Origin: Deltaproteobacteria bacterium
Lineage (GTDB): Bacteria; Desulfobacterota; DSM-4660; Desulfatiglandales; Desulfatiglandaceae
Assembly (NCBI GenBank): GCA_021737785.1
Contig: JAIPDI010000045.1
Coordinates: 1 to 43,759, forward strand
DNA: 43,759 bases
Direction: 5' to 3'
Part shown: one piece after another, positions 37,121 to 43,759 of the stretch
Layout of the letters: each line of letters begins with the position of its first letter
Position numbering within the stretch: position 1 is the first letter of the stretch
Translations under genes and position numbers: made by a program
Notes under the pieces: model-generated
Database searches by the model: none
Seen by the model: only the letters and a program-made list of their open reading frames with translations
What the model was told of the DNA's origin: nothing

Positions 37121-37819
37121 TTAGCAGGCCGTTGCGGATTCCTGCCATCCGACCGGCGCATCCGTCCGGTTGATCAAAAGCCCCAGTTCCTGCAGCCTGA
37201 TGATCATGGCGTGCAGGGAGACATTGGTGAATCCGCCTGCCTCACACATCATGGCGGCAATACGGGCCCAGTTTTCCACGCAGGGATCAACAAACAGACT
37301 CGGCGGCCCAATGGTGCTTTTCCGGTTGTGCAGTACAAGGGCATCCTTTTCAAAGGCTGCCCGAAATGCCTTGACAACCGCCTTCTGCGGCATCAGAAGG
37401 CACCCCGCAAAGTAATCGGCCTGCCATTCAATCCGTTCTCTGGCGTTCCCTGTGCGGCATACAATAACGTCCCCGTCAACGGCCTGTCTCGTCGCTACCT
37501 CGGCATAGCGCCGATGCAGGATCCAGTGACCGACCTCATGGGCACAGGTAAAGATCAACCTCCCCTCCGGGCCCTGTTCCAAAAGCCGCTCGTTGATGCA
37601 GATGAGCTTGGCCCCCACATAGGTGGCGCCGAGCACCCCCTTTGACCCCAGTATGGTTTCCAGATCTTCAAAGGCAAGCGTGAGTCCGAGCGATCTTTCA
37701 ATCATATCTTCCACCGGAATCGGAGGCGTGATCGGATATCCGGCGATGGCCTCGTAATCATCGATAAGCCCTGAAGCCGCTTCGGCAATCTTCTGTTTGG
37801 CCAGCCATGGCACCCTCAT
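37121..37819 (-). CDS. ImmA/IrrE-family metallopeptidase
   Basis: This 232-residue protein has the zinc-protease motif HEVGH (H94-H98) in TCAHEVGHWILH, followed by EWQADYFAGCLLMP, the typical third-ligand region. Such proteases cut partner repressors in phage, ICE and stress systems. Its start overlaps the stop of the XRE regulator gene by 4 bases, so they are coupled and probably act together. Confidence 0.9.
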   Translation of the reverse strand: MRVPWLAKQKIAEAASGLIDDYEAIAGYPITPPIPVEDMIERSLGLTLAFEDLETILGSKGVLGATYVGAKLICINERLLEQGPEGRLIFTCAHEVGHWILHRRYAEVATRQAVDGDVIVCRTGNARERIEWQADYFAGCLLMPQKAVVKAFRAAFEKDALVLHNRKSTIGPPSLFVDPCVENWARIAAMMCEAGGFTNVSLHAMIIRLQELGLLINRTDAPVGWQESATAC

Positions 37820-38181
37820 TTTTCGCCCTCCCCTTTCCCGAGTTTTGCGATCTCAGCCAACTGCGAGAGCCTGGACCAGTCGTCTTCTCCGTAGCCCCTC
37901 TCTTTGGCGGTTCTCAAAAAGTCGGCAACTCGGGGTTGTTGCGCCACGTATTGAGACAACTCGGGATCGACCTTTCTGGCAGCCGCCAGCAGCCGCTGTT
38001 TATCCATGTTCAAGGCCCTTGCCATATCCACAATGACTTTTTCAGAGGGCGGGGCTGCCCGACCGTTTTCCACATCGCTCAAGTACCCGGGCGACGTATT
38101 GATCATCCGGGCCAGTTCCCTGAGCCCCACACCCGTCTCCAGCCTGAGATCCCTCAGTATGTCGCCAAATCCCTTTTCCAT
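37816..38181 (-). CDS. XRE-family HTH regulator
   Basis: This 121-residue protein has a Cro/CI-type HTH (about 7-62: LRDLRLETGVGLRELARMINTSPGYLSDVENGRAAPP). The ATG at 38181 with AAGGA upstream is preferred; an extra 78 codons up to 38415 look non-coding. It is coupled to the ImmA peptidase. Direct and inverted CGTCTACC repeats lie about 250 bases upstream and are candidate operators. Confidence 0.9.
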   Translation of the reverse strand: MEKGFGDILRDLRLETGVGLRELARMINTSPGYLSDVENGRAAPPSEKVIVDMARALNMDKQRLLAAARKVDPELSQYVAQQPRVADFLRTAKERGYGEDDWSRLSQLAEIAKLGKGEGEK

Positions 38182-38302
38182 ACATTCCTTTCGCAGCAGA
38201 CAGTGTTCTATATAGTCGAACACCCCCCGGCTGTCAAGAGGAATTTCTTGAAATCGTGAGAGATACCATGGAGAATTAGGAAGGAAGGTGATTGGAATGC
38301 GC

Positions 38303-38322
38303 CGGAGGCGAACAAGCCTCCG
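38303..38322. repeat. GC-rich hairpin, REP-like
   Basis: CGGAGGC (38303-38309) and GCCTCCG (38316-38322) form a 7-bp stem around GAACAA. It lies upstream of the XRE gene, at the edge of the AT-rich region. Confidence 0.5.
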
Positions 38323-38423
38323 ACACCCTGCTCCCAAAGCAACTACGCTGAATTTATGGAACGATGCTAACCCACTAAAATATATGATTTTTAAAGAAGT
38401 TCTCCTTTTCACCAATTCCTGAT

Positions 38424-38487: not shown

Positions 38488-39035
38488 CATTTCTGTGTTG
38501 AAGTGAATCACTCATTACCCACTCTTATCCTTTTTTCCTATGAAAACTTGAGCGAATTAAAACGGTTTCTGAAAAAGGGTTGAAAAAAATTTAAAATGGG
38601 GACAGGATATGAGGGAATGTCTCACTATTATCTATTTGACTCCAACAACAAAGAGAATTGATCAAAGACCATTGCCAAAAGCCTAAATTTCCAAAAACCA
38701 AACGTAAATCGGCCCGGCCCTAACCTGCTATAAATTCAGACTGATCTATAAAAACCTTGACAAAAACCCTTATCTAACAGCGCCGAAAGCAACGTAGAGG
38801 GCCATTAAGCTTCCAAACCCTACCCATGTATTTAAATTTTGGGAGAGAGCCTGAGCTTTGATCTAAGAGAAACAAAACGGACACTTGATAAGATACCAAA
38901 GAGGAACCTGTAAGGGGTATCAAAGATCGACAAGAGAAACCCAAGAAAACCCTATAATAGAAAACCCCTTCCCTGGAAGAAAAGTCTGAGGGGACACGAT
39001 ATCAACATCAGCCAGAAAAAACTTGAACCACCTGG

Positions 39036-39120
39036 AGGGAGAGACCCACACAACAAACCCACCATAAAGGGGCGGATACCTTGATACCTGGAAACCATAA
39101 AATCCCATATAAAACCCCAC
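39036..39120 (+). repeat. ~85-bp degenerate repeat, copy R1
   Basis: Starting at GGAGGGAGAG it aligns over about 85 bases with 39408-39500: shared words include GAGA, CCCACAC, ACAAAC, GGGCGGAT, GATCCC-like and CCACCG. It lies directly upstream of the DUF2845 gene. An even weaker copy is at about 38913-38985. Confidence 0.65.
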
Positions 39121-39136
39121 CGGAAGGAGAAAAATC

Positions 39137-39409: not shown

Positions 39410-39500
39410 GGGGAGAGGCCCACACGACAAACGCCCCTATAAATGGGCGGATGCCCTGAGACCTGAAAACCGCAAGATCCCAAGTAAAACGCCACCGAGG
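39408..39500 (+). repeat. ~85-bp degenerate repeat, copy R2
   Basis: This copy aligns with R1 at roughly three of four positions and ends in a true terminator hairpin. It lies between the DUF2845 gene and the zinc-ribbon gene, overlapping the former's stop codon. Confidence 0.65.
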
Positions 39501-41136: not shown

Positions 41137-41156
41137 ATCTAACGAACATGTTAGAT
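41137..41156. repeat. inverted repeat ATCTAAC/GTTAGAT
   Basis: ATCTAAC (41137-41143) and GTTAGAT (41150-41156) are perfect 7-bp arms around six bases, in the 218-base gap between the DUF4124 gene and the convergent gene. The arms fit the integron core and inverse-core patterns, but the spacing is far too short for attC. Confidence 0.4.
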
Positions 41157-41171
41157 TCTTACAAATTGAGT

Positions 41172-41190
41172 CTGAGAGTTTATCTCTCAG
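41172..41190 (-). terminator. hairpin after the winged-helix gene
   Basis: CTGAGAG (41172-41178) and CTCTCAG (41184-41190) are perfect arms around TTTAT, five bases past the stop codon of the minus-strand gene at 41196. The following bases are only weakly T-rich, so it is a probable terminator. Confidence 0.5.
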
Positions 41191-41195
41191 AACGT

Positions 41196-42371
41196 TTAAG
41201 CGGCTAATAATTCTGTTATTTTTTCAATATAGTCGTCAGCCTGATGGTATGCTTTTTCAAGCTTACTGTTCGGCATGAACAAGTTGTTGGGCCGGTGATG
41301 AAAAAGACTGTTGGCCAAAGGGCCGAATAAGCGTTTATGAAAAAGAGTGAACATGGTGGCCACATTGACACCTTTCTCGGTAAGCAGATATGAATATTGT
41401 TGGCCATTTCGTTTCACAAGACCATGCGCTTTCATTTTTCGCAGATCATAACGCAATTGGTTGATTGTATAGTTTCGCAATTCAAAGGCTTCGAGAATAG
41501 ATTTGTGGATTAGGGCAGAAGACCAGCCGTTGAGGCAAGCTCCAGTATGCATCATGGTTTCCATGAGTCGAATCATGCGGGTATCTTGAATTTTTATTCC
41601 AGCTATCCGGGTGTTGCCGCACGTGATGGGCAATGCGAGCCTTTGCAGCAAGGGGAAGTCAAAATGGGCATTCAAAGAACGGGATTGAATCTCGGCAAAA
41701 CGGTCAAGGATCTCCTGTGATGTTGCTTTGACTTGGTCGAGATGTTCAAGTGACTTTTTGATGTGTAAGTCGGGAAGATTGTTGCAGCAGATTTCCATTC
41801 GAAGAAATGTTCGAAGTTTTTCGTATTGTTTTACAAAGGAGTTTTTGAAATAGGCTCGGAAAGTATGATGGGCCTGATCCGTACGTTCCAAAATGGTTTG
41901 TAATTTGCCTCTGAATCTTTTTGTGATGCGCCAACCAAAGATGTTGGATATCTTATCGCCGGTCATTGATAAGAAACTGAGTTCGCAGGATCTTTCAAAT
42001 AGCTTTCGAATCGGGAAATGGCGACGGAAGATGAAGTTTTGACAATATTCGATCTGTGAAATGGCATAAAACCGTCGCAAGTTCATTTTCTCTCTTTCGC
42101 GCTTGGAAAATTTAGGACTGACAATAAATGACCAATATTCAATGCGATCACGGATGATGTCGTGGTTTAATCTATCTGCTGCTGCCTGAAGGAGAGTTGG
42201 ATCTTCTACCGAAACAAACGCATTATCGTTTTTCTTGTACCTGACGCCAGCTTTTGACAGTTCCTGTTCAATAAAGTTGTGTCCATTCAGGTAACAGGTG
42301 ACATGAAAAGGCAAATATGAACCAACACGGATCAGCATGGGACCGCTAGATAGGTGGCACTTCAAAATCAT
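41196..42371 (-). CDS. unnamed ~390-residue protein with C-terminal winged helix
   Basis: I do not recognise a named family. The protein is basic and Leu-rich. The N-terminal part runs from LSSGPMLIRVGSYLPFHVTCYLNGHNFIEQEL; a helical middle follows, and the C-terminus has a winged-helix-like part (INQLRYDLRKMKAHGLVKRNGQQYSYLLTEKGVNVA) suggesting DNA or RNA binding. It resembles unnamed proteins that I recall as widespread in mobile or accessory regions, but that is from memory. The start is uncertain: ATG 42371, ATG 42380, or a TTG at 42473 that overlaps the upstream stop codon. It is downstream of the nuclease-like gene on the same strand and probably co-transcribed with it. Confidence 0.6.
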   Translation of the reverse strand: MILKCHLSSGPMLIRVGSYLPFHVTCYLNGHNFIEQELSKAGVRYKKNDNAFVSVEDPTLLQAAADRLNHDIIRDRIEYWSFIVSPKFSKREREKMNLRRFYAISQIEYCQNFIFRRHFPIRKLFERSCELSFLSMTGDKISNIFGWRITKRFRGKLQTILERTDQAHHTFRAYFKNSFVKQYEKLRTFLRMEICCNNLPDLHIKKSLEHLDQVKATSQEILDRFAEIQSRSLNAHFDFPLLQRLALPITCGNTRIAGIKIQDTRMIRLMETMMHTGACLNGWSSALIHKSILEAFELRNYTINQLRYDLRKMKAHGLVKRNGQQYSYLLTEKGVNVATMFTLFHKRLFGPLANSLFHHRPNNLFMPNSKLEKAYHQADDYIEKITELLAA

Positions 42372-42469
42372 ATATACCATATAACAACTTGGCAACTTTA
42401 ATAATAGGTTTATCTTAGACCAAAACCTTAATACTTTTAAAGCTGATAGAGCACACAATTGATCAGAAA

Positions 42470-43618
42470 TCAATTCGGCCTCTCATCAACAGCCTGTGAT
42501 ACCGAGTCCCTATAATTAACCCTAAATTTGTCGAAAAGGAGTTCAAAGTTTGCATAAAATGATTTATGCCTTAGAACCTTGCCTCTAATATCGTAATCAG
42601 CATTCCTATTAAACATGCATTCAAATACCAGTTTATGATACGAATCGTTTTCTAAGTATTGGAAAAGATCTTTTTCGCTAAATTCTTCTCCAAGCCATTG
42701 ACAAAAAACACCGTCGCGGCATTGAACTTCACCGCTATAAATAAAATTAGCCAACTCATAGAAACTCCTCACAGGATGATCCAGAACACGGTATCCGGAA
42801 AACATTCGATTTCCAATGACTATGCAAGTGGATATAGTATCTACACTATCAAGATCCCAATTAAGTCTATCTGAGAGATATTTCTTGAACTGATTATTTC
42901 TAAAAGACTCTGATATCTTAGAAAGCTGATTGGCAGCCTTATTCACATGATCATGAATCGTTCTGATTTCATGTATACTCCCGGAGAGTAAAGACCGTTT
43001 TCCTTCAAAAATGAACACAGTACTGTTTTTTTTTGCTATTATATCAATATCTCCTTTTAACTCACGGAAATTATAATCAATCTCATTTTCAACCTCTGGA
43101 AAATGTTGTTTCAAAAGTGCCGCTAAAGAAGATAGCATAGGGTCTTCCTTATTATCTTCAAAAAATCGTCTTTTTACTAAAAACAACGTATTTCTTAGAT
43201 AATCGGAAAAGAGGAATAAATGCATGGGAAGAATGAAATAGTCATCAGCGAATAATATAGGCTGATACTGCAAATCGAGCACCCCTCCACCTTTTGGATT
43301 CCATGAAAAAAGGTTAAAAAAACTTTGAACCTTCTCCTTGTCGATTACAATTTCAAGGATCTCAGAAAAAATGTCCTTTTGATATACTGGAAGCAAAGAT
43401 CGAGCAACTATCTCCGGTTCTGATTCGAAAAACTTTTTCAAATGCGCGCAAAAAATGACTACGGTGACATGAAATAGTCTATGGATCTTCACTAGATCAA
43501 AAAAAGTGAGACTTTCATAAACATTAAATGATCTGAGTGTATCAAAATGTATGAAAAGCTCTCTACAGCCCTCTGCCAAGAAAGTTGATTCTTCAAAGAA
43601 AAGCTTTTCCGAATTCAA
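42470..43618 (-). CDS. PD-(D/E)XK nuclease-like protein
   Basis: This protein of about 382 residues has an AT-rich gene. Residues 177-207 fit the PD-(D/E)XK core: ENEIDYNF, then GDIDIIAKK (D190, D192) and VFIFEGK (E205-x-K207), the arrangement of restriction-type and NERD-type nucleases. The N-terminal 170 residues and the C-terminus are not recognised. The start is a TTG at 43618 with no strong ribosome-binding site, so the N-terminus is uncertain. It overlaps or abuts the winged-helix gene downstream. A defence or mobile-element role is possible. Bases 43619-43759 show no gene. Confidence 0.6.
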   Translation of the reverse strand: MNSEKLFFEESTFLAEGCRELFIHFDTLRSFNVYESLTFFDLVKIHRLFHVTVVIFCAHLKKFFESEPEIVARSLLPVYQKDIFSEILEIVIDKEKVQSFFNLFSWNPKGGGVLDLQYQPILFADDYFILPMHLFLFSDYLRNTLFLVKRRFFEDNKEDPMLSSLAALLKQHFPEVENEIDYNFRELKGDIDIIAKKNSTVFIFEGKRSLLSGSIHEIRTIHDHVNKAANQLSKISESFRNNQFKKYLSDRLNWDLDSVDTISTCIVIGNRMFSGYRVLDHPVRSFYELANFIYSGEVQCRDGVFCQWLGEEFSEKDLFQYLENDSYHKLVFECMFNRNADYDIRGKVLRHKSFYANFELLFDKFRVNYRDSVSQAVDERPN

Positions 43619-43759
43619 AATTTGATGGTCTCGTAAAAAGTAAAAGTTAATTAAACGATTGAAATAATTGTAAATAGACTCATTTTTAGCTTGCTTTTTG
43701 CCCTACATTTTGGTATAGAAATAGACCAGTTGTTAACCCATTGTAGGTGAAAAGCATGA

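Follow-up and report, generated by a model that had tools for sequence, protein, structure and literature searches.

IS200/IS605 and RAYT/REP elements lack inverted terminal repeats and carry hairpins near their ends, short cleavage-like motifs at both ends and small non-autonomous derivatives, and their transposase is a protein of approximately 150 amino acids (aa). Helitrons and the IS91–ISCR elements are rolling-circle transposons. The plasmid initiators of the Rep_trans family are not known to contain a winged helix, nor those of the pT181 type a HUH histidine pair. The element family described here, of which the present locus carries a remnant, is like IS200/IS605 and RAYT/REP in having no inverted repeats, hairpins, CTA at both ends and short derivatives, but differs from them in its transposase-like protein, which is approximately 535 aa long and ends in a winged-helix region. 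We estimate a probability of about 0.78 that the anatomy set out below and the mobile-element reading hold jointly, the chemistry of transposition being left aside.

Anatomy of the locus

The window, that is, the whole 43,759-nucleotide (nt) stretch analysed, is the entire contig C45 of genome G000 (5.33 Mb in 96 contigs). At its right end, two minus-strand open reading frames (ORFs), 41196–42473 and 42470–43618, overlap by 4 bp in a region with a GC content of 38–45%, compared with approximately 55% elsewhere. The original prediction had seen in them a same-strand, AT-rich pair of a nuclease-like and a winged-helix gene, possibly a defence or mobile unit, beside an XRE/ImmA pair. Both ORFs are real and as AT-rich as claimed; the XRE/ImmA pair is also present, but approximately 2.8 kb and three plus-strand ORFs separate it from the 41196 ORF. 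Its ImmA-like and XRE genes (window 37121–38415, minus strand) match the PADLOC models capP (E = 6.9e-19) and capH (E = 3e-7) and constitute a CapH/CapP-like repressor–protease pair. By eye, similar stretches of approximately 80 bp (window 39030–39125 and 39410–39500, plus strand) stand ahead of two small plus-strand genes out of three in the AT-rich region, those for a DUF2845 and a zinc-ribbon protein.

In curated-model scans of both ORFs, PF08461 and the PADLOC NERD model alone exceeded the cut-off, and PHROGs gave weak matches only. The two are not a gene pair, and neither ORF is whole: the nuclease ORF is the 3′ half of a gene and the second ORF the 3′ part of another. The features of the locus are as follows.

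41151–41191, minus strand: right end of the element, consisting of the hairpin TCTGAGAG-ATAAA-CTCTCAGA, a spacer and GTAAGAATCTAA
41199–42344, minus strand: 3′ part of a transposase-like gene (382 of approximately 535 codons), with the winged helix on the C-terminal side
42345–42472, minus strand: junction, in which neither a left end nor any N-terminal portion of the element ORF can be recognised
42473–43623, minus strand: 3′ half of a PD-(D/E)XK NERD-like nuclease gene split by an insertion sequence (IS), the C-terminal approximately 382 of approximately 714 codons
42998–43051, minus strand: predicted catalytic residues D190/D192, E205 and K207 of the nuclease, from alignment columns
43618–43623, no strand assigned: 6-bp target-site duplication AAATTT, the other copy of which is at G000:C70:21326–21331
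43624–43759, plus strand: end of a multi-copy IS with the terminal inverted repeat (TIR) GATGGTCTCGTAAAAAGT, at the contig end, a repeat found at G000 contig ends

The adjacency of the ORFs is that of two independent broken sequences abutting, and the junction is read through by chance in a TTG-started ORF. This anatomy of a split nuclease gene and an element remnant we regard as very probable.

The split nuclease gene

The last approximately 136 bp of C45 recur with 99–100% identity at four other G000 contig ends, the pattern left when a multi-copy IS breaks an assembly, and one shorter match is located close to a terminus of contig C70; the ends concerned are those of C14, C32, C43, C65 and C70 together with window 43624–43759. 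Other repeats with the same terminal repeat are present at C40, C49 and C42. The IS, whose TIR reads GA(T/C)GGTCTCGTAAAAAGT, was inserted in the nuclease gene at position 43624 with a 6-bp target duplication, AAATTT. A 371-codon ORF on C70 matches the nuclease profile (E = 4.8e-54) and terminates at the same 18-bp terminal repeat. The flanks of C70 and C45 both carry AAATTT, and when one copy is removed the joined frame is open over 753 codons, with its first methionine at codon 40 and a product of approximately 714 aa; the TTG at 43618, considered as the start of the nuclease, was rejected, being an internal codon of this approximately 714-codon gene. Together, the shared TIR, the 6-bp AAATTT and the continuous frame show, as far as sequence comparison can, that the nuclease gene was cut by an IS that left the duplication. 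We infer the physical link between C70 and C45 from the flank, the duplication and the frame rather than from reads. The nuclease gene is probably inactive in this strain, since its halves flank a transposon. Upstream of the 5′ half, C70 (locus L159) also carries a Phd/PIN toxin–antitoxin pair and a DUF4143/AAA_14 ATPase gene (L159:1603–2294, plus strand, and L159:13341–14474, minus strand).

The PD-(D/E)XK spacing proposed for the upstream ORF was found in the motifs GDID (residues 189–192) and FEGK (residues 204–207) of the nuclease half. The D, E and K residues, the loss of which in homologues had been named as evidence against the idea, are retained: alignment columns D532, E545 and K547, corresponding to D192, E205 and K207 of the window protein, are invariant in all seven aligned sequences. 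The suggested comparison with NERD proteins yielded a match of the window nuclease to the PADLOC model ‘Viperin-associated NERD’ (PDLC02906; E = 3e-9, profile positions 346–524 of 542), and the best match of the nuclease profile among solved structures was AF1548 (E = 0.005), which has a restriction-endonuclease-like fold. With PDLC02906 and Pfam NERD (PF08378) the window nuclease has in common the PD-(D/E)XK core with D..ExK; it differs from them in that the window protein gave no match to PF08378, with three homologues scoring 15.1–17.8 bits against a cut-off of 22.1, and in its N-terminal half, which neither Pfam nor PADLOC recognised. There was no viperin among the annotated neighbours in four of eight plasmid records, two more of which carry no annotation, nor among the four proteins viewed, besides ORF starts, on C70. 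AlphaFold produced models too poor to use: pLDDT was 36.5 for the element protein of locus L003, run with three relatives, and 41.0 for the window nuclease by itself.

Homologues of the nuclease reside on plasmids of Rhizobium, Sinorhizobium, Cupriavidus, Novosphingobium and Rhizorhabdus. Loci were compared in six of the eight plasmid records (those other than Sphingobium amiense and Rhizorhabdus wittichii); in five of the six the frame comprises 728–765 codons, and the window ORF matches only the C-terminal half of the homologues, from approximately residue 341. The sixth, L024, is broken and lies near PIN and IS genes; there, in Novosphingobium decolorationis (L024:1559–5873), the homologue is in pieces around an IS5 insertion, a second disrupted copy. 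Full-length homologues adjoin AbiEi/AbiEii and HEPN/Toprim genes (L020), a type I restriction–modification system (L022) and a HEPN gene (L023), and because of these neighbours a role of the nuclease in defence is plausible; the intact enzyme would most likely have cleaved invading DNA.

The element remnant and its relatives

The winged helix claimed for the downstream ORF is there: PF08461 matches it with E = 1.2e-5, above the model's own cut-off, and besides weak scattered hits no Pfam or NCBIfam models other than those of winged helices match the second ORF. Its homology to other proteins starts at residue 44, the first 43 codons having no counterpart except in the alignments to L026 and L016, which extend 10–15 codons further upstream, and full-length relatives have approximately 160–220 extra N-terminal residues. 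These relatives are approximately 500–560 aa long, and longer as open frames. The closest are from Candidatus Tariuqbacter (L003, 68% identity) and a Bryobacteraceae metagenome-assembled genome (MAG; L004, 51%), followed at 20–27% by proteins of Rhodococcus, Mycobacterium, Caballeronia/Paraburkholderia plasmids and phylum-mates. Alignment A4 revealed a conserved signature of NGH, QxE and (I/V)K(Q/M)YxK...LRxE ahead of the winged helix, with K326, Y328, K330 and R336 conserved at 90% or more and E338 invariant. Row L052 of A4, read out of frame, was part of the alignment for this signature, for the scan of 18 members and for the hhalign comparison described below, and was dropped for the survey of shared loci; row L045 starts inside a wrong frame; rows L044 (alignment A1) and L017 (A1 and A6) are 5′-truncated or misread at the start. 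In four of five close pairs dN/dS was 0.10, 0.13, 0.14 and 0.15; the remaining pair, one member of which is the truncated L017 copy, gave 0.29, and two further pairs were saturated. These values show purifying selection on the element ORF in the close pairs tested.

The element protein profile matched 16 of 85 genomes of the class, in none of which is there an intact single frame; in G000 the window is the sole match and lacks the N-terminal approximately 150 profile positions. At the scale of the phylum, the window element sequence alone matched 14 of 395 genomes. Phage records contained no match to the nuclease or the element-protein family, and in viral contigs no relative was picked up by either of the two window proteins or by A2 or A6; A1 and A5 each found one locus.

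The distribution of the two families bears directly on the original prediction of a two-gene unit. The survey of neighbourhoods in other genomes that it had called for showed that, among the loci compared, the window contig is the only one on which the two families occur together; one genome, G397, has both, approximately 2.08 Mb apart. For this reason, and by the standard that the prediction had set itself, the idea of a defence pair fails. A genuine two-gene anti-phage operon of a nuclease and a winged-helix regulator would fit the common strand, the 4-bp overlap, the NERD-like nuclease and the defence genes near nuclease homologues, but both ORFs are truncated, the families co-occur in no other locus compared, an IS interrupts the nuclease gene and a mobile-element right end adjoins the winged-helix ORF, so that we give such an operon hardly any credence. 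What stands of the defence claim is a plausible role for the nuclease, and the proposal of a mobile unit is borne out in another sense, for the second, transposase-like gene and not for the pair.

In Burkholderiales, Actinobacteria and several MAG lineages, full-length relatives of the second ORF form the single ORF of a discrete element of approximately 1.75–1.87 kb, the ends of which are constant while the flanks are unrelated. Caballeronia plasmid pSBC2-3 carries two copies (L018 and L054) that are 94.8% identical over approximately 1.82 kb with sharp ends, and L047 of Paraburkholderia has the same ends and an internal deletion; no flank is common among the three. The homology of the native left flank of L054 to P. 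phymatum ends 4 bp short of the element. Copies in Rhodococcus have a common unit of approximately 1.86 kb, broken in one case by a 2.3-kb insertion, and a Mycolicibacterium copy is interrupted by IS256; the Rhodococcus/Mycolicibacterium and the Mycobacterium groups each have their own recurrent ends.

Comparison of L003 with L004 gave the left end CTA(A/G)CCAAAGATATTTGAAATTT, and on one viral contig (L058) this end leads into an ORF start resembling that of L004. An alignment of 20 right ends shows a palindrome near TCTGAGAGATAAnCTCTCAGA, then a spacer and then GTAAGAATCTA; the 20 were those of 22 sequences with a stem of at least 5 and a tail of at least 8, L087:1045 and window:34709 being dropped, as the rest of the consensus is missing from them. 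The right-end hairpin is a near-perfect palindrome, 89.5% paired. Covariation was rejected as evidence for the hairpin, as both partners differ in just 2 of 152 cells and shuffled data gave equal results. Elements of the window's class start with CTA(R)CC and mostly terminate with CTAA or CTAT, and the ends of the Burkholderiales and actinobacterial elements differ but follow the same plan, with CTAAC or CTACC ahead of a GC hairpin at the left end and CTAG at the right end. CTA is present at each end; inverted terminal repeats cannot be seen, no consistent target duplication beyond CTA was observed and searches for empty sites found no precise one.

Elements with the same ends and a length of 159–449 bp are present in the window's class, including one in G000 (L113, at approximately 155 kb on contig C2), which is complete at 184 bp and whose right end matches the one in the window at 85% identity over 52 bp. 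The first 20 bases of the left end, with up to two mismatches, had 104 matches, spread over 25 of the 85 class genomes, compared with 4 for the reversed control, and most of these matches do not lead into the element ORF. At 30 of the 104 matches, chosen by the left end alone, a strict right end was sought within 600 bp; it was found downstream at 8 of 30 loci, compared with 0 of 30 and 1 of 30 in the upstream tests. Loci L116–L145 are no independent enrichment, because the query by which they were picked contained the right end. L113 also contains an internal AGGAATT/AATTCCT-type repeat, which is widespread in the genomes of the family independently of element ends. A figure of 39 of 85 genomes was rejected as a count of element copies, because many matches lie in this repeat (positions 18–54 and 79–109). 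We read the short elements as probable MITE-like derivatives of the IS-like family.

Alternatively, the protein could be a DNA-binding regulator or plasmid gene copied by other transposons, and the short repeats unrelated intergenic repeats. The winged helix is indeed its sole recognisable domain, plasmid copies are annotated, where annotated, as hypothetical or ArsR-like, and many copies adjoin IS genes. Against this, the element ends hug one ORF with no other gene within, the left end is common to L003, L004 and the short elements, and the right end is common to L003, the window and the short elements; we consider the regulator reading improbable. A discrete unit with one ORF under selection, accompanied by short derivatives, leads to the transposase reading, in which the second ORF would be what is left, on the 3′ side, of the sole gene of a hitherto undescribed IS-like element. 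No transposase model of Pfam or NCBIfam matched any of 18 members. The novelty of the family is provisional and is judged against Pfam, NCBIfam and the open-access literature, in the titles and opening lines of abstracts of which there is no description of it.

A candidate transposition mechanism

In the scheme that we tentatively prefer among several open ones, at somewhat below even odds, the protein would bind the element ends via its winged helix and the hairpins, the conserved tyrosine of the (I/V)K(Q/M)YxK...LRxE motif would nick at CTA(R), and the element would move in single-stranded form, its targets having little in common besides CTA; intact copies may move the short elements in trans. 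The hairpin ends, the lack of inverted repeats and the CTA at both ends fit single-strand transposition. The motif resembles the IRIYNK...LWRVE of Rep (pT181 RepC and pC221 RepD), in which Y188 of RepD has a catalytic role, but the spacing from Y to RxE differs from that of Rep_trans. Membership in Rep_trans was rejected, as hhalign against pT181/pC221 Rep gave a probability of 0.1%; PF02486 is absent from the families matched by the 18 members, and a search of 21 genomes for the Rep_trans family found none. Because the profile comparison with Rep was negative, the tyrosine-nuclease mechanism rests on the short motif and the anatomy of the ends. There is no conserved HxH, and hence no conserved HUH histidine pair, in A4, a feature that pT181-type Reps are not known to have either, and Y1_Tnp matched none of the 18 members. 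As in Helitrons and IS91–ISCR, some copies run from 5′ TC to CTAG 3′ with an end-proximal hairpin; unlike them, the element has no helicase and no match to Y2 or Rep models, and those of the window's class start and mostly end as described above.

Movement by site-specific recombination or by an RNA-guided IS110-like reaction, instead of by a HUH-type nuclease, would agree with the CTA direct-repeat core at both ends, with the lack of inverted repeats and of a consistent duplication, and with the absence of profile similarity to Rep_trans. No recombinase or IS110 domain of Pfam or NCBIfam (for IS110, DEDD_Tnp/Transposase_20) matched any of the 18 members, and the end palindromes suit single-strand transposition at least equally, leaving this alternative unlikely, though still a serious one. 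The wider proposal, that these elements are a widespread unrecognised transposon class, with an approximately 535-aa winged-helix-tailed transposase outside known superfamilies, single-stranded movement, end hairpins, CTA(R) cleavage and MITE-like derivatives throughout the class, is speculative and in our judgement well short of an even chance.

The locus itself is a caution that, where a contig ends, a pair of pseudogene-like halves can be mistaken for a novel defence operon. If the family is real, ‘hypothetical’ proteins of soil Rhodococcus, Mycobacterium, Caballeronia and many MAGs would be transposases missed by annotation pipelines, one kind of intergenic repeat in this bacterial class would have its origin in the short derivatives, and an unclassified transposase acting with hairpin ends would offer a new system for the study of DNA transposition.
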